From: Thermomicrobiales bacterium | GTDB taxonomy: Bacteria > Chloroflexota > Chloroflexia > Thermomicrobiales > UBA6265 | DNA length: 64,000 nucleotides | Direction: 5' to 3' | Assembly (NCBI GenBank): GCA_019637585.1 | Contig: JAHBVL010000003.1 | Location: 463,827 to 527,826 of the forward strand | In this document: positions 4,957 to 55,966 of the stretch, one piece after another | Position numbering within the stretch: position 1 is the stretch's first letter | How the letters are laid out: each line of letters opens with the position of its first letter | Program-made: the position numbers and the translations under genes | The notes under the pieces: model-generated | Told to the model about the DNA's origin: nothing | What the model saw: only the letters and a program-made list of their open reading frames with translations | The model's database searches: none

Positions 4957-5056
4957 CAGCAGTCAGCAGTCAGCCGTCAGAGTTTGAGCAGTTATATCCC
5001 GACGGCGTCTCGCCCGCTCCTGACCGCTGACGGCTGACCGCCGACTGCTGACTGCT
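4957..5056. repeat. Inverted pair of heptamer arrays (AGTCAGC units)
   Basis: Units related to AGTCAGC run from 4957 to 4980. Units related to their reverse complement (CTGACCG, CTGACTG) run from 5020 to 5056, with about 39 bp between. The block lies in the divergent spacer between the DMFase-like gene and the bactofilin-like gene, and could form a long imperfect hairpin. It has the same layout as the gene-bearing arrays at 14.8, 23.7 and 26.0 kb, without a gene inside. Confidence 0.8.
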
Positions 5057-5135
5057 TCGCCACGCCCCGCCAGTGGTATCGTTATGTCGCCGGATCTGTG
5101 CGGATTTGGCTGCGCACCTCATAGGGAGAATCGAG

Positions 5136-6050
5136 ATGAAAAGATTCCTCGTTGCGCTTGCGTGCGGGTTCATCGCGCTGCTCGTGGGAACCGGCTCCGT
5201 CTGGGCTCAGAACGAAACTACCGTCGATGCCGTCGTGCGCTCTTCGGACGATTCGTTCATCATCAAGGTGAACGGCTCCGCCACCGTCGGACCAAATGAA
5301 TCGGTCGATGGCATTCTGGTCGTCCGGGGCGACATCACCGTCGACGGAACGGTCCGGGAAGGCTTGGTGCTCTACGACGGCACCGCGACGATCAATGGCG
5401 TGGTGGACGGCGACATCGTCGTCGTCAACGGCGATCTGGTGCTGAATGCCGGTTCCGTCGTCGACGATGTGATGCTCGTCCGCAGTGATATCCAGCAGGA
5501 CCCGGCCGCCACGGTCAGTGGCGAGATCACCGAATCGAGCGGCGACTTCCGTGTCGGGCGTGGCCTCGTCATCTTCTCCATCCTCTGGTGGATCGGCACC
5601 ATCATCGTCGGCATTGTGGGAGCCATCATCTTCGCCTGGCTTGGCCGCGCGCAGCTCTTCGGTGCGGTGGGCACACTTCGATCCGATTTCGTGGGCAGCC
5701 TCATCACCGCGATCGTGCTCTTCATCGGCTTGCCGATTGTCGCCGGACTGGTTCTCTTCACGCTCATTGGAGCGCCGCTGGGCATCACTATCTTCTTCGC
5801 CGTGCTGCCGATTCTGCTGGCTCTCGGCTTGATCGTCATCGGCACGTGGATCGCCTCCTACATCATCAAGGGACACTCCACCGGAGCGGCAATTGGTACA
5901 GCGGTGCTTGGGGTCATCATTCTGGCGCTGCTGTCGATGATCCCGTTCGTCGCGTTCATCGTGCTGCTGGCCGGCATGCTCGGCGCGGGCGCACTCGTCT
6001 ACCGCGCATTCAGACGCTCCTCGACGCAAGCGCTGCCTCAGCAGCCGTAG
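5136..6050 (+). CDS. Membrane-anchored bactofilin-like (polymer-forming) protein
   Basis: A 304-residue protein. A signal peptide (KRFLVALACGFIALLVG...WAQ) precedes a stretch of short repeating strands around residues 35-140 (VDGILVVRGDITVDG, VDGDIVVVNGDLVL). Such strands are typical of the bactofilin beta-helix. The C-terminal half has about five hydrophobic segments (IFSILWWIGTIIVGIVGAII, LITAIVLFIGLPIVAGLVLF and later ones). The beta-helix is therefore predicted outside the membrane, which differs from soluble bactofilins. The ATG at 5136 has an AGGGAGA ribosome-binding site seven bases upstream. A role in cell-envelope scaffolding is inferred only. Confidence 0.75.
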   Translation: MKRFLVALACGFIALLVGTGSVWAQNETTVDAVVRSSDDSFIIKVNGSATVGPNESVDGILVVRGDITVDGTVREGLVLYDGTATINGVVDGDIVVVNGDLVLNAGSVVDDVMLVRSDIQQDPAATVSGEITESSGDFRVGRGLVIFSILWWIGTIIVGIVGAIIFAWLGRAQLFGAVGTLRSDFVGSLITAIVLFIGLPIVAGLVLFTLIGAPLGITIFFAVLPILLALGLIVIGTWIASYIIKGHSTGAAIGTAVLGVIILALLSMIPFVAFIVLLAGMLGAGALVYRAFRRSSTQALPQQP

Positions 6051-6066
6051 TGAGACGCAGGGCAAC

Positions 6067-10835: not shown

Positions 10836-11545
<710 letters not shown>

Positions 11546-11546
<1 letters not shown>

Positions 11547-11766
11547 GCAAAGGGCAAAGGGCAAAGGGCAAAGAAACGATACCTTATCGGCCCACCCAGG
11601 GTTCGCCAACGCGGGCCCCGTCCTACTTTTGCCCTTCGCCCCTTGCCTCTTGCCCACCGTCCTTTGCCTATCTCCTCGCCAGCCTCTCCACTCAAGGTTT
11701 CGTCCTACTTTTGCCTTTTGCCCTTTGCCCTTTGCCCTTTGCCTATCTCCCTTCGCCCTTTGCCCT
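11546..11766. repeat. Inverted heptamer arrays (GGGCAAA / TTTGCCC units)
   Basis: Four GGGCAAA units (11546-11573) are followed after about 50 bp by many TTTGCCC-type units (11626-11670 and 11707-11766). The line CGTCCTACTTTTGCC occurs twice (from 11619 and 11701), so part of the block is duplicated. The right array runs into the stop codon of the FAD oxidoreductase. The block separates convergent genes and could act as a two-way terminator. No gene lies inside. Confidence 0.85.
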
Positions 11767-13160
11767 CATCTCTTCGCCAACCGCTCCGCCAGACTCTTCC
11801 CATCCGGCGCTTTTCCCGTCCTGGCGGCTTTTTCGTCGAGCTTGCCGAATGACCGCTGCACGTAGCGCACGCCCAGAAATCGGAAGGGTTCGGGTTCCCA
11901 GCTTCGCGACCGGTGATTGACCGGCGGCAGTGTGGTTCGTTCGGTTTGCCGGCCGAGCATGAGATCGGCCAGCGTTCTGCCGGCCAGATTGGCTGTTGCC
12001 ACACCATTGCCGGTATACCCGCGAGCCGACGCCACATTCGTCCGCACATCGAAGCTGAAGGTGGGCATGAAGTCACGGGGCCAGCCAAGCGGACCTCCCC
12101 AGGTGTGGGTGAACCTGACATCCTTGAGACCCGGAAACCAGGCGCGGACATTGTCCTGCAGCATGGTGTGGGTCGGGCCGTGCAGGTCGTAGCTATCTTC
12201 GATCTTCGATCCGAAGTGATAGGGCGCACCCCGGCCGCCGAAGAGAATCCGGCCGTCGGCTGTTTTGGAGAGATAGTCGATGGTGTACTTGCACGATTCC
12301 ACCGTGTGCCGGCTGTACCAACCGATCGCTGCCCACTGATCGCTGGTCAGCGGTTCGGTGAGGGTGATCAGTGAGTAGACGGGCATCACCTGCCGCCCCA
12401 CACCCTTCAAGCCGCTCATATAGGCTTCGCCGCAGAGCACGACCATCCGAGCTCGAGCATGCCCGCGGTCTGTGTGCAGAACCGGGTATGCGCCGCCGGT
12501 GAAATCGGTCACCGCTGTCTGCTCGTAGATCGTCGCGCCCATCGATTCGACTACGCGCGCCAGTCCACGCACCAGCCGGCCCGGATGAATCACCGCCGTT
12601 TGCTTCAGCCAGACCGAACCGAGTGTCTCGGTAATCCGGATGCGCTCGTCGGTCGCCGCCTTGTCGTAGACCTCGACTTCATCCTCGAATCCATAGTCGG
12701 TCAACGACCGGGCGATCTCGCCGATCTCCGGCAGCTGCGCCTCTCCGCGCGCGATGAAGAGCGAACCCGATTTCTCCCACTGGATATCGAGCGCGTGCCG
12801 CGCGGCAAACGAGCCCACCTCGTCGACCGCTCCCGCCATCGCCCGGTGCATGTCGATGGCGGCGCTCCGGCCCCATCCCTTGGCCAGGGTATCCATGCTG
12901 GTCGGAAACCCGGACGTGCACCAGGCTCCATTGCGCCCCGAGGCGCCAAAGCCCGCAATCTCCCGCTCCAGGATCGCGACTTTGAGCGACGGGTTCTGTT
13001 GCAGCAGGTAATAGGCGGTCCACAGACCAGAATACCCAGCGCCCAGAATGGCCACATCGACATCGATCGAAACATCCATCGCCGGGCGCGGCGTCAGATC
13101 GTCACCACACGTCTCGAGCCAGTAGCTGTACGTGCTGTAATCCCTGGTCGCCTCTCCCAC
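11766..13160 (-). CDS. FAD-dependent oxidoreductase, DAO/PuuB-like
   Basis: A 464-residue flavoenzyme of the D-amino-acid-oxidase superfamily. The dinucleotide-binding motif is AILGAGYSGLWTAYYL near residues 37-52, followed by the ASGRNGAW block found in gamma-glutamylputrescine oxidases. ARGYTGNGVATANLAGRTLADL near the C-terminus is the second FAD-contacting region. It should oxidise an amine or amino acid with O2 or another acceptor; the substrate is not determined. Start GTG at 13160 is chosen because GGGAG lies 9-10 bases upstream and no in-frame ATG is nearby. Its 3' end, coding for the last residues, lies in a heptamer array. Confidence 0.85.
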   Translation of the reverse strand: MGEATRDYSTYSYWLETCGDDLTPRPAMDVSIDVDVAILGAGYSGLWTAYYLLQQNPSLKVAILEREIAGFGASGRNGAWCTSGFPTSMDTLAKGWGRSAAIDMHRAMAGAVDEVGSFAARHALDIQWEKSGSLFIARGEAQLPEIGEIARSLTDYGFEDEVEVYDKAATDERIRITETLGSVWLKQTAVIHPGRLVRGLARVVESMGATIYEQTAVTDFTGGAYPVLHTDRGHARARMVVLCGEAYMSGLKGVGRQVMPVYSLITLTEPLTSDQWAAIGWYSRHTVESCKYTIDYLSKTADGRILFGGRGAPYHFGSKIEDSYDLHGPTHTMLQDNVRAWFPGLKDVRFTHTWGGPLGWPRDFMPTFSFDVRTNVASARGYTGNGVATANLAGRTLADLMLGRQTERTTLPPVNHRSRSWEPEPFRFLGVRYVQRSFGKLDEKAARTGKAPDGKSLAERLAKR

Positions 13161-13298
13161 TGCCCATCGCTCCCTGGCTATCGCTCATCCGTGGGCGGAA
13201 TGATACGTCCCCCGCATATACGCTCTTTTGTATCGATGGGTGTTTTGGTGCATTGTTGGGCACATATGCGTGACGGCTCTACGTGTCAGGGGATCCCT

Positions 13299-13580
13299 AT
13301 GTCGCAAAGTGAGAACGCCCAACCCAGCCGGGAAGAATGGCTTCAGATCATCTGGCCGGAAACCGGCCTGCACACGATCACATCGGCGCCGGCAGCCGCA
13401 AAGGACACCCTCGACGAAGACGCCGAGATCACCCTCTCAATCGACTTCCTCACCCTCTCCCTCTCGCCCCTGGAGTTCATCCAACTGGCGTCATTCCTCA
13501 GGATGAGCGTCGACCAACTCCTCGAACGCCACCCCAGCTGGCAGCGGGCGGTGGTCAATGCGTTCGATGTGAAGGATTGA
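13299..13580 (+). CDS. Small acidic protein of unknown function
   Basis: A 93-residue frame with ATG at 13299 and an AGGGGA site six bases upstream. It is acidic in the middle (LDEDAEITLSIDFLTL) and predicted mostly helical towards the C-terminus (PLEFIQLASFLRMSVDQLLER). No family is recognised. It is divergent from the FAD oxidoreductase, so the 138-bp gap between them should hold both promoters. The C-terminal end is followed directly by a heptamer array. It could be a small regulator, but nothing in the sequence proves this. Confidence 0.55.
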   Translation: MSQSENAQPSREEWLQIIWPETGLHTITSAPAAAKDTLDEDAEITLSIDFLTLSLSPLEFIQLASFLRMSVDQLLERHPSWQRAVVNAFDVKD

Positions 13581-13588
13581 GACGAAGC

Positions 13589-13618
13589 GGGCACTGGGCA
13601 CTGGGCACTGGGCACTGG
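13589..13618. repeat. Heptamer array, GGGCACT units
   Basis: Four perfect GGGCACT repeats start nine bases after the stop of the small acidic gene. No inverted partner is obvious nearby; a different array (GGACTTC type) begins at 13786. Confidence 0.85.
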
Positions 13619-14836: not shown

Positions 14837-14866
14837 GCTGGCGGCTGGCAGCTGGAAGCCGGCAGC
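14837..14866. repeat. Heptamer array left of four-helix-bundle gene A (GCTGGCA units)
   Basis: Units GCTGGCG, GCTGGCA, GCTGGAA and GCCGGCA in tandem. The array sits between the stop codon of the four-helix-bundle gene (14877) and the ribosome-binding site of the Gfo/Idh/MocA gene. Its unit resembles the reverse complement of the array on the other side of the gene (15244-15278). Confidence 0.75.
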
Positions 14867-14876
14867 GACGGGTTGA

Positions 14877-15233
14877 CTACTTCTCAATTGACTTCATGAG
14901 CCCCTGAATCAAACGCCCCGTTTCGCTTGCGAGTGATTCTGCGCGGGCCGACGCTTCGTGATCGACGAGCTTGATCCGCTTCGCAATCTCGAGCTGCGTC
15001 TCCAGTTCGCGTAACGATCCATAGGCGTAGCCGAGAAACGCAAGAAACTGGGCATCAGTGCCCCGCCCTTGACCTTCAGCGATATTCGACGGTATCGAGT
15101 TTGCCGCACGGCGAATCTGACTCGTGATCTCGTATCGGTGCTCTCTCGGCCATCCAGACGACAGTTCGTATATCTCTACCACAAGATCCATCGATCGCTG
15201 CCAGGCGATGAGATCACGATAGTTCCTGATCAC
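14877..15233 (-). CDS. Four-helix-bundle protein, 23S-rRNA-IVS family (copy A)
   Basis: A 118-residue helical protein of the family first seen in 23S rRNA intervening sequences and related to the Avd protein of diversity-generating retroelements. Family marks are YRDLIAWQRSMDL at the start, WPREHRYEITSQIRRAA, NIAEGQGR, and SLRELETQL. GTG at 15233 is chosen because the conserved start follows at once and AGGAA lies just upstream. It sits between two tandem arrays (14837-14866 and 15244-15278) inside an operon of unrelated metabolic genes. Paralogues in the same setting occur at 23750 and 26125. Cellular function is unknown. Confidence 0.88.
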   Translation of the reverse strand: MIRNYRDLIAWQRSMDLVVEIYELSSGWPREHRYEITSQIRRAANSIPSNIAEGQGRGTDAQFLAFLGYAYGSLRELETQLEIAKRIKLVDHEASARAESLASETGRLIQGLMKSIEK

Positions 15234-15243
15234 CGTCGTTCCT

Positions 15244-15278
15244 GCCCGCTGCCTGCTGCCTGCTGCCTGCTGCCTGCT
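15244..15278. repeat. Heptamer array right of four-helix-bundle gene A (GCCTGCT units)
   Basis: Five tandem units of GCCTGCT type (first GCCCGCT). The last unit overlaps the stop codon (15277-15279) of the isomerase-like gene. Read in reverse complement the unit is close to GCAGGCA, similar to GCTGGCA in the array on the other side of the four-helix-bundle gene. Confidence 0.85.
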
Positions 15279-22460: not shown

Positions 22461-23753
22461 TCAAGCGCTCGGCGTGTAGTAGTTGGCATATTGCCAGACG
22501 GCTTTCTCATGCAGGAGCTCGGGCGTCAATCCCTGCGACGCAAACCGGTCCGGCGCCAGAAGGGAAAGATCGAACGGCGGCTCTCCTCCGACGATCCATT
22601 CGGCCACACACCGGCCAATCGCCGACGAAAGAGAGAATCCGCTCCCGTTGCACCCAGTCGTCACCCAGAATCCCCGCACAGCCCCGACCGGTCCCGCCAT
22701 CAGCTTCCCGTCCGCGGTCATGGTGAAGAGACCACCACGCTCCTCCTGCGACGTATGCTCCCGCAGCGCTGGAATCGACGGCTTGAGCACCTCGGCGAAC
22801 TGGTCATTCAGGGTCGGGTCGAACGAGATCATGTCGGTGGTGAAGCCCGCCGGCAGCTGGGACGGATAGGCCAGCGGGTTCGATTCGAACCCGCCAAACA
22901 TCAAACCATTGCGCGCTGGTCTGGCGTAGCCGGAGGCATCGGTGATGCGCACGATCGGCATATCGGCAGTCACGCCCTCGATCGGACTGGTGATGCGCAG
23001 CTGATGCCGCATCGGCACCACCGGCACCTCGACACCAGCCATCGCCCCGATCATGCGGGACCAGACTCCCGCCGCATCGACAACGACCGGCGTCTCGATC
23101 GTCCCGGCCGCGGTCTGAACAGCCCACACCTCGCCCGCTTCAACGCTGATGCCCGTTACCGGCGTGTGGCCGATCACCCGCAATCCCAGCGCTTCACCCG
23201 CCTGCCAGTAGGCGATCAGCATCGACCGCGGTTCTTCGATGTAGAGATCGCCGGGTACGTGATGGACCGAAACGATGCCTTCCGGATCGAGATAGCCGCA
23301 CAATCGCGATGCCTCCCGGGCATCGACCCGCTCGATTTCGACGCCCCAACCAACCGAGTCCTCGACCTCGGCATCGACCATTCCAGCGTGCGCCGGCGTG
23401 CGGGCGATGAAGAGACTGCCAACCGCCTCATGCGGTATCGGCACACCGGTTTCCTGGGCAAATGTGGTGACGATCTGCCGGGAAAGCAGAGCCAGCCGCG
23501 TTTTCGTTGCCGACGCCTGGATCATCTTGAACAACCCGGCCGCTTTCGGCGAAACCTGCGTGCCCGGTTCGTACTGATCGAGCAGCACAACCGATCCGGC
23601 GCCAAGCCTGACCAACTGATAGGCGACGCTGAAACCAAATGCCCCGGCGCCGATCACGACCGCGTCCGCCGATGTGGGAAGTTGGTCCGAAGTCCGGAGT
23701 CCGAAGTCCGAGGCCCGGCTTCCTGTTGTGACCGAATTGGCGGCTGTACTCAA
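22461..23753 (-). CDS. FAD-dependent oxidoreductase, sarcosine/glycine oxidase-like (start uncertain)
   Basis: A DAO-superfamily flavoenzyme of about 430 residues. AVVIGAGAFGFSVAYQL is the FAD-binding motif, VVVDAAGVWS a second contact, and FWVTTGCNGSGFSLSSAIG the C-terminal FAD loop. It should oxidise an N-methyl amine or amino acid. No ATG with a good site precedes the FAD motif. A TTG at 23753 overlaps the stop of the four-helix-bundle gene and is the likeliest coupled start. From there the N-terminal 25 residues are encoded by a GTCCGRA heptamer array (ASDFGLRTSD), so the array now supplies the protein's N-terminus or the start is elsewhere. A longer frame to 23876 exists. Confidence 0.78.
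   Translation of the reverse strand: MSTAANSVTTGSRASDFGLRTSDQLPTSADAVVIGAGAFGFSVAYQLVRLGAGSVVLLDQYEPGTQVSPKAAGLFKMIQASATKTRLALLSRQIVTTFAQETGVPIPHEAVGSLFIARTPAHAGMVDAEVEDSVGWGVEIERVDAREASRLCGYLDPEGIVSVHHVPGDLYIEEPRSMLIAYWQAGEALGLRVIGHTPVTGISVEAGEVWAVQTAAGTIETPVVVDAAGVWSRMIGAMAGVEVPVVPMRHQLRITSPIEGVTADMPIVRITDASGYARPARNGLMFGGFESNPLAYPSQLPAGFTTDMISFDPTLNDQFAEVLKPSIPALREHTSQEERGGLFTMTADGKLMAGPVGAVRGFWVTTGCNGSGFSLSSAIGRCVAEWIVGGEPPFDLSLLAPDRFASQGLTPELLHEKAVWQYANYYTPSA
23685..23718. repeat. Heptamer array left of four-helix-bundle gene B (GTCCGAA/GTCCGGA)
   Basis: GTCCGAA, GTCCGGA, GTCCGAA and GTCCGAG in tandem. The first 26 bases occur as a perfect reverse complement within 24221-24265, on the other side of the four-helix-bundle gene. 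The array lies inside the N-terminal coding region of the oxidoreductase. Confidence 0.9.
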
Positions 23754-24199
23754 GAGAGACGTCCCTTCAGGTGCTTGATGAGGCCCCGCAGCGGACGGCC
23801 AGCGTCGTTGCAGGCACTCAGCACGCGATCGTATCCACTTTTGTCGAAAAAGCCGACTCGATAGGCGATGACGCAAAGCGTTTCCACTTCTCTGAGAGAC
23901 CCATGGGCAATTGACAGGTGGTGGAGGAACTCCCTGTCACCATTTCTCCCCTTGCCCTCAGCGATGTTCGCTGCGATTGACACTGCCGCACGGCGAATCT
24001 GGCTGGTCATGCCGTATGTTTCTTCACGGGGCCACGGACGCGTCTCTGTGTAGACAAGCACGCTCAGATCGATCGCCTTCCGCCACGCGACAAGTTCTCC
24101 TGCCGGCGACTCCACATCGTATTTCGAGGCATCTTCAGCGACAAGCTTTCCACCGTTCAGCGCCAGGTCCTGTACAAATCCATCTGCCCAATCATCCAT
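23750..24199 (-). CDS. Four-helix-bundle protein, 23S-rRNA-IVS family (copy B)
   Basis: A 149-residue member of the family. ELVAWRKAIDLSVLVY, WPREETYGMTSQIRRAAVSI, NIAEGKGRNGDREF and SLREVETLCVIA align with copies A and C. The first 30 residues (MDDWADGFVQ...) extend beyond the usual start and may be an added N-terminus; ATG 24199 has AAGGG upstream. The gene is bracketed by perfectly complementary heptamer arrays at 23685-23718 and 24227-24265, and lies between an SDR gene and an FAD oxidoreductase gene on the same strand. Its TGA overlaps a TTG that may start the oxidoreductase. Confidence 0.87.
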   Translation of the reverse strand: MDDWADGFVQDLALNGGKLVAEDASKYDVESPAGELVAWRKAIDLSVLVYTETRPWPREETYGMTSQIRRAAVSIAANIAEGKGRNGDREFLHHLSIAHGSLREVETLCVIAYRVGFFDKSGYDRVLSACNDAGRPLRGLIKHLKGRLS

Positions 24200-24226
24200 A
24201 CCCGTTTCCCTTCACTGTGCCCCCCC

Positions 24227-24265
24227 GGACTTCGGACTCCGGACTTCGGACTCCGGACTCCAGAC
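24227..24265. repeat. Heptamer array right of four-helix-bundle gene B (GGACTTC/GGACTCC)
   Basis: Five units alternating GGACTTC and GGACTCC. They are the reverse complement of the array at 23685-23718. The array ends three bases before the stop codon of the SDR gene (24269-24271). Confidence 0.9.
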
Positions 24266-24268
24266 CCA

Positions 24269-25057
24269 TCACCCTCCCTGCAGGAGCTGATTGATGAAGA
24301 ACGACCCAGCAGTGAGCCCCCCATCGATCGGCAGGGTCACTCCCGTGATCCAGGACGCGTCATCGGAGCAGAGGAAGAGCGCCGCCGGGACGACGTCCGA
24401 CACCTCGCCGACCCGGCCAAGCGGATAGACCTTGGCCAGGTTGTCGAACACCTGCGGCTCCTTCTCCACCCGCGCTCCCCAGATCGGCGTGCGGATGGTG
24501 CCGGGTGCTATGCAGTTGGCCCGCACCCCTTTCGGGCCATAGTGAATCGCCAGATTCTGCGTCAGATTCACCATACCCGCCTTGGCCGCACTGTAGGCCG
24601 ACTCGCCGAGCCCGGTGATGCCATTCACCGAACCGACATTGAGGATCACCCCGGATCCTCGCTCGATCATGCCGGGCAGCGCTTCGCGCGAGCAGAGATA
24701 GATGCCCTTGAGCACTACGTCGAGGTTGCGGTCCCAGGCAGCTTCGTCGAAATCGAGAATGGTGTCGCCGACGGAAAGACCGGCATTGTTCACAAGAATA
24801 TCGATCCGGCCAAAGCGGTCGATCGCCTGGCCGATCGCGGCTTTCACTGATTCGCTGTCGGCGACATCGACGCTCACGCCCAGCGCCTCTCCACCAGCCG
24901 CCATGATCGTCGCGGCGACCTCTTCGGTTTTGACCAACGTCAAACCCGCTGCGACGACCTTCGCCCCTTCGGCGGCCATCGCCTCAGCGATCCCCTTGCC
25001 GATCCCGGATCCACCCCCAGTGACGAACGTCACCCGGCCTTCGAACCGCTTTCCCAT
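24269..25057 (-). CDS. SDR-family oxidoreductase
   Basis: A 262-residue classical short-chain dehydrogenase/reductase. The cofactor motif is TGGGSGIG (TGxxxGxG), followed by VDVAD, NNAGLSVG, the catalytic Ser in NVGSVNG, and YSAAK (YxxxK). C-terminal PIDGG is present. No basic residue clearly selects NADP, so NAD is likely but unproven. Start ATG 25057 follows AGGAGCTTTAG. It shares strand and probable transcript with the oxidoreductase and ABC genes around it. The substrate is unknown. Confidence 0.92.
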   Translation of the reverse strand: MGKRFEGRVTFVTGGGSGIGKGIAEAMAAEGAKVVAAGLTLVKTEEVAATIMAAGGEALGVSVDVADSESVKAAIGQAIDRFGRIDILVNNAGLSVGDTILDFDEAAWDRNLDVVLKGIYLCSREALPGMIERGSGVILNVGSVNGITGLGESAYSAAKAGMVNLTQNLAIHYGPKGVRANCIAPGTIRTPIWGARVEKEPQVFDNLAKVYPLGRVGEVSDVVPAALFLCSDDASWITGVTLPIDGGLTAGSFFINQLLQGG

Positions 25058-25191: not shown

Positions 25192-26046
25192 CTACCCTCT
25201 CAGCGCACCGTCCTGCAGTCCCCGCAGGAACCAGTGCTGGGCGATGCCGAATGCGATCAGCGCCGGCACCATGGCGACCACCAACAACGCCGCCGAACCG
25301 GGCGCAACACCGATTCCCTGGCCAAGCAGCACAGCCAGCGTCCAGTTGTCCCGCCGGTTGACCAGCGTCGACGCCAGCAGATACTCCCCCCAGGCCAGAT
25401 TGAAGCTCAGAATCAATACGACCACGATGCCGTTCCGGACCATCGGCAGGAGAATGCCCACCAGCGTCCGCAGCGAACCAGCGCCGTCGATCCTCGCCGC
25501 GTCGACGATCTCCTTTGGCACCGCCTGGAAGACCCCGCGCATGACGAAAACGCTGACGGCCACCATCATCGCCGTATAGGGGAAAAAGAGGCTCCAGGGC
25601 CGGTCGATCAGACCCAACCGGTACTGGATCTTGAAGAGGCCGGTGAGCGCTGTCACCTGCGTCGGGAAAAACATCGACGCCACCAGTATCCCCAGGATGA
25701 CCCGGCTCCCAGGGGTGCTCAGGTGGGAAAGGGCATATCCGGCCAGCACTGCCGCCACAGCCGTCGAGAAGACCGTCAGCAGCGTGATGACCGCGCTATG
25801 CGAAAGACTCCGGTAGAACGGATTCTCCAGCGTCGCATCCTGCCAGAGCCACCGGTAGTTCGCCCACAGCGGATCCTGAAACTCCTTCGGCCAGGCCCGC
25901 TCGAAATACTTGAACGGCCCCGCCTTCACCGAATGCAGCACCACCCAGACCAGCGGCGCCAGCACCCAGGAGCAGAGGAGGATCAGCACAGAGTGCTTCG
26001 CGACGAGACGGAGAGACGGGAGGACGGGGAGACGTGGAGAGGCCAT
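25192..26046 (-). CDS. Carbohydrate ABC transporter permease, MalG type (second copy)
   Basis: A 284-residue six-helix permease. The cytoplasmic loop EIVDAARIDGAGSLRTLVGILLP is the EAA motif that contacts the ATPase. It is clearly paralogous to the permease at 26624-27538 along its whole length (shared HAVLILLC-like helix, FFPTQVTALTG, WGEYLLA and QDGALRG end). ATG 26046 has AGGAA upstream; an alternative ATG at 26097 has none. From 26046 the first 15 residues (SPRLPVLPSLRL) are encoded by the GAGACGGG octamer array left of four-helix-bundle copy C, so the array has entered the coding sequence. Confidence 0.85.
   Translation of the reverse strand: MASPRLPVLPSLRLVAKHSVLILLCSWVLAPLVWVVLHSVKAGPFKYFERAWPKEFQDPLWANYRWLWQDATLENPFYRSLSHSAVITLLTVFSTAVAAVLAGYALSHLSTPGSRVILGILVASMFFPTQVTALTGLFKIQYRLGLIDRPWSLFFPYTAMMVAVSVFVMRGVFQAVPKEIVDAARIDGAGSLRTLVGILLPMVRNGIVVVLILSFNLAWGEYLLASTLVNRRDNWTLAVLLGQGIGVAPGSAALLVVAMVPALIAFGIAQHWFLRGLQDGALRG
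26002..26042. repeat. Octamer array left of four-helix-bundle gene C (GAGACGGG units)
   Basis: Five units of GAGACGGG type, the reverse complement of the CCCGTCTC units at 26490-26622. The array overlaps the beginning of the MalG-type permease gene. Confidence 0.8.
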
Positions 26047-26124: not shown

Positions 26125-26487
26125 TTACTCCGAAAGACTTCTCATCAATCCGCGCACGAGACGTCCGACTTCCTCAGATTGCTCGAGTACGTGTTCGCGC
26201 TTCTCAAGATCAAGATATCCCTGATCGTGCGCCACGAACAGAAGTGTCTCGACTTCACAAAGCGAACCGTGCGCAACTGAGAGATGATGCCTGAACTCTC
26301 TGGAGCCTGTTCTCCCATTGCCTTCAGCAATATTGGCCGGAACCGAAACCACGGCACGACGAACTTGCTGGGTGAGTCCGAACTGCTCTCGCTGGGGCCA
26401 AGTATCACTCAGGAAATACACCGTCCGAACGAGGTCCATCGCCTTCTGCCAAGCGACAAGATCACGATACCCCCGCTTGAAGGTCAC
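26125..26487 (-). CDS. Four-helix-bundle protein, 23S-rRNA-IVS family (copy C)
   Basis: A 120-residue member: YRDLVAWQKAMDLVRTVYFL, WPQREQFGLTQQVRRAVVSV, NIAEGNGRTGSREF and SLCEVETLLFVAH. GTG 26487 gives the standard family N-terminus. The gene lies between two paralogous MalG-type permease genes on the same strand and is bracketed by inverted octamer arrays (26002-26042 and 26490-26622). Sequence identity to copies A and B is moderate, so the three are old paralogues or independent arrivals rather than very recent duplicates. Function unknown. Confidence 0.88.
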   Translation of the reverse strand: MTFKRGYRDLVAWQKAMDLVRTVYFLSDTWPQREQFGLTQQVRRAVVSVPANIAEGNGRTGSREFRHHLSVAHGSLCEVETLLFVAHDQGYLDLEKREHVLEQSEEVGRLVRGLMRSLSE

Positions 26488-26489
26488 CT

Positions 26490-26622
26490 GCCCGTCTCCT
26501 GGTCTGCCCGTCTCCTCGTCTGCCCGTCTCCCCGTCTGGCCGTCTCCCCGTCTCCCCGTCTCCCCGTCTGGCCGTCTCCCCGTCTCCCCGTCTCCCCGTC
26601 TCCCCGTCTCCCCGTCTGGCCG
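26490..26622. repeat. Octamer array right of four-helix-bundle gene C (CCCGTCTC units)
   Basis: About sixteen 8-bp units of the CCCGTCTC/CCGTCTGG type. The array starts three bases upstream of the four-helix-bundle gene and ends at the stop codon of the upstream permease (26624-26626). Chance frames across it translate to PRLPV-type repeats and are not genes. Confidence 0.92.
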
Positions 26623-49985: not shown

Positions 49986-50060
49986 GCCCATTTCCCATTT
50001 CCCATTTCCCTTTGCCCTTCGCCCTTTGCCCATCGCCCTTTGCCCTTTGCCCTTTGCCCT
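49986..50060. repeat. Heptamer array (CCCATTT then CCCTTTG units)
   Basis: Three CCCATTT units run into about seven units of the CCCTTTG/CCCTTCG type. No inverted partner is seen nearby. It fills the 293-bp divergent gap between the kinase triplet and the peptide ABC operon, together with a TATACT-like -10 box near 50093. Confidence 0.85.
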
Positions 50061-55732: not shown

Positions 55733-55809
55733 CCAGGTTGCCTCTCGTTCGTTGTTGTTCGCATTCCGAGGTCCGGAAGAACCGGTGGAATGGTAGCGAA
55801 TTGGGGGAT

Positions 55810-55966
55810 AGTGCATAGTGCATGGTTCATAGTGCATCGGAAGAGCGGAGTCCGAGGTCCGAGGTCCGAGGTCCGAAGCGTCCCCGGGCCACAGGTGCCC
55901 GAACTACGGTTGCCCCCTGGCCGTCTTCCCGTCTGGCCGCCTCTCCTCTCCGCCTCTCCGCCTCTG
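55810..55966. repeat. Three different short tandem arrays in one divergent spacer
   Basis: GTGCATA-type heptamers (55810-55838), GTCCGAG heptamers (55848-55878) and CCGCCTCT-type octamers (55921-55966) follow one another in the 368-bp gap between the permease and the divergent binding-protein gene. The second unit matches the arrays at 23685 and, inverted, at 24227. No gene is seen in the gap; promoters for both directions must lie here but are not clear. Confidence 0.82.

Follow-up and report, generated by a model that had tools for sequence, protein, structure and literature searches.

Genes of the S23p family, whose four-helix-bundle proteins are also encoded in intervening sequences (IVSs) of 23S rRNA, lie here between two short tandem arrays that are inverted relative to each other, and we think it probable that gene and arrays together form a compact mobile element of the foldback type, about 420-600 bp long and related to the 23S rRNA IVS. 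Such an element would consist of a left array, the S23p gene and an inverted right array, with the G-rich left array no more than about 10 bp from an upstream stop codon and the whole usually in sense orientation. In the window, by which we mean the entire 64,000-nucleotide stretch of Thermomicrobiales DNA that was analysed, three such cassettes occur, together with related arrays that carry no gene (Table 1).

Table 1. Positions of S23p cassettes, their host genes and gene-less arrays in the window
Feature	Position	Strand	Remarks
Cassette B, whole	23685-24268	-	S23p gene between two mutually inverted heptamer arrays
Cassette B, left (G-rich) arm	24225..24265	-	GGAGTCCGGAGTCCGAAGTCCGG when read along the gene strand; starts 3 bp past the SDR stop
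Cassette B, S23p (four-helix-bundle) gene	23750..24199	-	149 aa; PF05635, TIGR02436
Cassette B, right (C-rich) arm	23685..23711	-	inverse of left arm, 26/26 bases; now within the next gene's reading frame
SDR oxidoreductase, upstream host gene of cassette B	24269..25057	-	PF13561
FAD-dependent oxidoreductase (DAO), downstream host gene of cassette B	22461..23753	-	
Cassette A, left arm (AGCAGGC)	15242..15278	-	runs straight on from the TAG stop of an isomerase gene
Cassette A, S23p gene	14877..15233	-	TIGR02436/PF05635 family
Cassette A, right arm, degenerate	14837..14866	-	
Cassette C, left arm	26491..26617	-	about 16 copies of an 8-mer (GGGGAGAC); 6 bp past a permease stop codon
Cassette C, S23p gene	26125..26487	-	
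Cassette C, right arm	26005..26040	-	8-mer
Gene-less inverted heptamer pair, GGCAAAG ... TTTGCCC	11544..11781	+	arms of 29 nt with 100% complementarity; starts within the TAG stop of ORF 10740-11546
Gene-less inverted heptamer pair, AGCAGTC	4957..5056	-	follows the stop of ORF 5082-6065 (-) by 25 bp
Solo heptamer array, GGGCACT	13589..13618	+	8 bp past the stop of ORF 12459-13580

The first-pass annotation of this DNA had described, for cassette B, an S23p-type gene flanked by inverted heptamer arrays with 26 matching bases, the right-hand array ending 3 bp from the stop codon of an SDR gene, and both points are borne out. TRF reports arrays at 23685-23711 (GTCCGAA) and 24225-24265 (CCGGACT), the two arms match at all 26 bases, and 3 bp separate the array end at 24265 from the SDR stop codon at 24269-24271. 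The gene matches PF05635 at 1.5e-31 and TIGR02436 at 4.7e-33, and S23p membership is supported by scores of 109-123 bits against a curated cut-off of 33.8 for PF05635 and of 114-124 bits against 24 for TIGR02436. The arms are paired in the RNA fold of the cassette, the total energy of which lies just 1.6 SD under that of shuffled sequences. At the other end, the DAO gene appears to start at a TTG (23753) that overlaps the stop of S23p (TTGA), its N-terminal extension being read from the right arm. The GTG start of DAO in genome G002 likewise overlaps the S23p stop (GTGA), again with the right arm as N-terminal extension, and this extension is absent from the DAO gene of G019, whose site is empty. 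In both the genome of the window (G000) and G002, the right arm is presumably translated from a DAO start that overlaps the S23p stop. No ATG lies near the conserved start of the DAO gene of the window.

The same layout with other units had been reported at two further loci of the window, and these correspond to cassette A, whose arms form an imperfect inversion (score 14), and cassette C. The description of the arrays as heptameric holds for the 7-mers and has to be corrected to include 8-mers, as well as inverted arrays that enclose no gene. In the window, 17 segments exceed the periodicity score at period 7 or 8, compared with 0, 3, 0, 0 and 1 at lags 5, 6, 9, 10 and 11, and the whole genome contains six S23p genes. 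More heptamer or octamer arrays lie at 49987-50060, 55808-55876 and 55945-55965, at which an inverted partner was not detected; they may be decayed elements.

Inverted arms are not a peculiarity of this genome. S23p genes are present in 27 of the 61 genomes of its family and order, and in the order-level set of 69 S23p loci we compared, with strands corrected, the 300 bp upstream with the 220 bp downstream and took as score their best inverted match without gaps. A score of at least 15 is reached by 54 of the 69 loci, compared with 0.7% of swapped flank pairs. Repeats of period 7 occur at 31 loci and of period 8 at eight; overall, a period of 7 is by far the commonest and 8 is occasional. A wider set, obtained by a contig scan, comprises the 80 loci best matching the alignment, from many phyla and including one archaeal MAG. 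Here, 47 of 80 reach at least 15 (null 0.9%) and 61 reach at least 13 (null 1.9%), with a possible selection effect because the loci are best matches to the alignment. In a family sample of nine genomes chosen by profile, inverted arms flank 16 of 17 loci, none of which carries the GGGAATC unit, and in control windows away from cassettes such arms are found in 0 of 298. Arms in direct orientation were seen at no locus of the order-level set, as scored before strand correction of some loci. The first-pass annotation had proposed comparing the flanks of other family members, and inverted short arrays are strongly over-represented in them, both in the order and in other phyla.

Convincing arms are missing (score below 13) at 13 of 69 order-level and 19 of 80 wider-set loci, in part as a result of degraded genes or contig ends. 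Degraded or stop-interrupted S23p copies are frequent. For example, the S23p genes of L011, L025, L029, L052 and L064 have internal stops or frame breaks, as expected of decaying mobile elements. In the wider set (L027-L150), 11 of 80 loci also score at least 13 for direct-orientation arms. One of the locus-finding queries was a composite consensus protein that served only to find loci, and gene-less arrays were counted in the window and the fetched loci. All p-values given here are nominal because the loci are phylogenetically non-independent (L036 and L076 are the same organism, and many Rhizobiales share one site). Phages gave just five weak matches, some annotated as Avd.

The repeat unit is private to each cassette, yet common to both its arms. 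Moreover, the more alike two proteins are, the more alike their units tend to be (Mantel r 0.155, permutation p about 0.001, n = 80), although this correlation is weak and would also result from common descent of arms and gene. In a Chitinophaga MAG (L097) and in Betaproteobacteria (L075, L091), AGGATTC-like units accompany one protein type, and such units turn up again in an Acidobacterium (L139). Read along the gene strand, the left arm is G-rich at 87.5% of order-level loci and at 54 of 58 in the wider set.

The suggestion that the unit enters operons just after stop codons is confirmed statistically as far as placement is concerned. In 61 of 91 cases, the left end lies at most 10 bp from the stop upstream of it (median 0), compared with 13.6% expected at random admissible positions, and TAG is enriched at the junction (35/66 vs 48/166, p 0.0008). 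Arrays often run on from the stop codon in register, as in TAG followed by GACTAAGGACTG or TGA followed by ATGGTGAATGG. Among 117 armed loci, the neighbour contexts are +[>]+ at 67, +[>]- at 17, -[>]- at 10 and -[>]+ at 6, so that sense outnumbers antisense by 67 to 10 in tandem contexts. Gene calls for the stop-codon statistics followed a simple longest-ORF rule, and part of the preference could be due to survivorship in tight operons. For 27 listed inverted pairs, some of them parts of S23p cassettes, 16 of 20 are in sense, a figure that is indicative only.

Empty-site orthologues, which the first-pass annotation had named as a test, exist for all three cassettes of the window, and closer pairs are available from cyanobacterial plasmids, in which six sites have both filled and empty versions with flanks 85-98% identical. 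At plasmid site 1, the empty version reads AAAAAGTAATTAAC and the filled one AAAAAGTAAT[element]GTAATTAAC, with a clear 5-bp duplication (GTAAT). At site 5, the insertion falls in a TAG stop and the first A of the element restores a TAA stop; TTCTA is repeated there, though possibly as part of the array. The cassette gene at site 3, between nrdA and nrdB, is antisense to the operon, again beside a stop. Stop codons likewise mark sites 2, 4 and 6, where the flanks are too diverged for a clear duplication to be read; a target duplication is thus clear at site 1 only. Related elements elsewhere are 78-82% identical, and the similarity is confined to the element. Gene-less elements occupy the same plasmid sites in L163 and L171. 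In L163, at site 1, the core of the element is a distinct palindrome, GGAGGAAACCCGCCCACGGCGCTGCCTCC, which may be a separate small dispersed cyanobacterial repeat inside the array.

Among the orthologues of the window loci, the SDR-DAO site is filled in G000 (unit AGTCCGA) and G002 (AGTCCGG) and empty in G019 (L181). The site of cassette A, between isomerase and oxidoreductase genes (ISO-OXR), is filled in G000 and G002 and empty in L212 and L217, and in L211, L213 and L214 it holds gene-less inverted arrays with other units, directly after the same stop codon. The permease pair that flanks cassette C has an empty site in G002. Truly empty sites, without any array, are found in L156, L162, L172-L174, L181, L212 and L217. 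Presence or absence of a whole unit at orthologous sites is one pattern expected of a DNA transposon, and at the level of sequence comparison these sites show that over evolutionary time the arms are gained and lost together with the gene. Gene-less derivatives whose arms are built alike are seen at sites of these kinds too (L163, L171, L211, L213, L214, L295).

The mobile unit proposed by the first-pass annotation is upheld by these presence/absence patterns and tempered by vertical persistence between nuoC and nuoD and by the sharing of the SDR-DAO site in two genera. In Rhizobiales, the cassette is often found between nuoC and nuoD (genes named by eye from sequence). Mapped onto the S23p tree, the nuoC-nuoD label requires 3 changes vs 13.8 in shuffles, and therefore the site is largely inherited; as read from this tree, the cassette there seems old and partly vertical. 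Its units nevertheless vary (AGGCAAT, AGTGAGT, AGCGAAT, AGTCGGC, GTGAATG). An arm pairs with its own partner at a median of 17 and with the arm of another species at a median of 8, and therefore both arms change together. That two inverted arrays should change in concert at a single orthologous site is an evolutionary puzzle. Of 29 readable Rhizobiaceae nuoC-nuoD loci, eight carry the cassette, 13 show a gap of less than 60 bp and eight have other content. The other content includes a gene-less array (L295) whose GTCGGCA unit is that of an S23p cassette (L268) in the same genome (G098), a match that is as expected if one had been mobilised or derived from the other. In L292 and L301-L304, the gap holds about 430-470 bp of apparently coding DNA, with a likeness by eye to the cysteine-rich GFA family. 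A 6.3 kb contig (L034, G030:C62) with alphaproteobacterial-type nuoC and nuoD and an S23p cassette is probably a contaminant of the MAG to which it is assigned, a genome that otherwise falls close to the order of the window. Retention between nuoC and nuoD, together with the stop/start overlap at SDR-DAO, suggests either low mobility or a host role.

If the cassette is a foldback-type element, its two arms would pair into a stem in mRNA and could form a cruciform in DNA. S23p is an Avd-related four-helix bundle that forms pentamers; it would recognise arms or stems of the lineage to which it belongs and aid movement, possibly assisted by host nucleases and replication. Insertion would perhaps be guided by homology between the unit and the stop codon, given that TAG is enriched, and would be tolerated near stops because the upstream and downstream cistrons remain intact. 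Template switching or gene conversion could keep the arms alike, with or without selection for the stem. By analogy with the Coxiella IVS, we infer that the stem may be processed by RNase III. S23p is the sole product encoded, with no transposase or recombinase found in the cassette by Pfam, and we infer that it is the mobility factor. Across the order-level set, its residues Q, R, G, R, S and E are invariant, and solved structures of relatives exist (2gsc, 2rld). We know of no catalytic site for transposition in S23p.

Other explanations have to be weighed against this one. An S23p gene might simply have inserted into older heptamer arrays, gene and arrays being independent, as the many gene-less arrays in the window and those known elsewhere (GGGAATC in Xanthomonas, PMC4692102) could lead one to suspect. 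However, insertion into a tandem array would yield direct rather than inverted arms, the truly empty sites carry no array at all, and the unit tracks the protein clade; we regard this origin as extremely improbable. Alternatively, the arms may move passively, by replication slippage or through a host transposase, with S23p as cargo or regulator. Gene-less forms at the same sites would then be natural, as would a protein without a known recombinase motif, but a mere cargo explains poorly why most copies keep an intact gene, why the gene is conserved across phyla and has invariant residues, or why unit and protein lineage are linked. We consider passive movement unlikely, though with a real chance of being correct.

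It is also conceivable that the cassette is an intercistronic module for RNA processing or mRNA stability that benefits the host, is kept by selection and rarely moves. The long retention between nuoC and nuoD, the concerted change of both arms, the overlap of S23p stop and DAO start in two genera and a sense bias that extends to most gene-less pairs are what such a module would display; its patchy presence, with only the minority of Rhizobiaceae loci filled, and the frequency of degraded, stop-interrupted copies are not, and we hold this possibility to be a minor one that still deserves serious attention. Finally, movement could proceed through RNA and a reverse transcriptase, with S23p acting like the Avd of diversity-generating retroelements (DGRs). 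S23p and Avd are indeed related (PHROG 3206, up to 1.5e-11), and the sense bias would fit. Nevertheless, no RVT_1 match was found in G000, which is 96.6% complete and has six cassettes, nor in the carriers G002, G005, G022, G034 and G036, so this route is unlikely here and, in general, highly improbable. For G000 itself, we reject a reverse-transcriptase route on the absence of an RVT_1 match, and the cassette cannot be classed as a DGR, which would have a reverse transcriptase in the genome.

Among known systems, the 23S rRNA IVSs of Coxiella and Leptospira are the closest, with a protein of the same family (PF05635) and inverted terminal repeats that form a long stem. Complementary ends of this kind are present in cassette B, whose 26-bp arms are perfect and paired in the RNA fold. 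The Coxiella IVS has a 28-bp terminal inverted repeat, is excised by RNase III and carries tandem GACAGAT heptamers upstream of its gene in strain-variable number (PMC4990558), and S23p genes also lie within rRNA insertions of CPR bacteria (PMC11270868). Compared by description, IVSs reside in rRNA genes and are excised from rRNA, whereas the cassettes lie between protein genes, at stops, with heptamer arrays on both sides and units private to each cassette. Cassette B, with SDR and DAO as its neighbours, is therefore not an IVS proper, and 23S signature strings were found in no fetched locus. The IVS, which has the same protein, would probably be a special case that landed in rRNA, from which RNase III removes it at the RNA level.

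From general knowledge, MITEs and REP elements resemble the gene-less forms as inverted-repeat derivatives in intergenic regions, but the arms here are tandem heptamers of lineage-private sequence rather than a fixed terminal sequence. Of the Foldback and Galileo transposons of Drosophila (PMC3573991), Galileo has a P-type transposase, whereas no transposase is recognised here. Avd of DGRs is a four-helix-bundle relative (PMC10053308), and the S23p proteins of the window fall under the NF033474 Avd cut-off. Intergenic heptamer arrays of period 7 have been described in Xanthomonas (GGGAATC), Nostoc (GGGGATT) and Beggiatoaceae (TAACTGA) (PMC4692102, PMC4679880). The Xanthomonas pairs are often inverted and near or overlapping stop codons on the sense strand; they are reported without a link to any gene or mobile element (PMC4692102), and the arrays of Xanthomonas and Nostoc are generally not found with mobile elements. 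In contrast to these arrays without an S23p link, the same build here forms the ends of an S23p cassette and also occurs in gene-less form. In a body of literature that was thin on subscription papers, we found no paper joining S23p, heptamer arms and insertion between protein genes, which does not by itself establish novelty.

It is quite possible, though we would stop short of calling it probable, that S23p proteins define a cross-phylum mobile superfamily with no recognised transposase or reverse transcriptase, with private, concerted heptamer ends and stop-codon targeting, and that this superfamily is the source of the gene-less arrays of cyanobacteria and Xanthomonas and of the 23S IVSs. 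The cassettes would join things that have been described separately, namely a widespread gene family without an assigned function, rRNA intervening sequences and heptamer arrays of unexplained origin. They supply many presence/absence pairs and give the S23p family a candidate role, in mobility or in stem processing. They would also explain S23p genes in unrelated operons such as cas loci, where 23S_rRNA_IVP genes, one of them between cmr3 and cmr2, have been discussed as having a CRISPR-associated function (PMC3936711).
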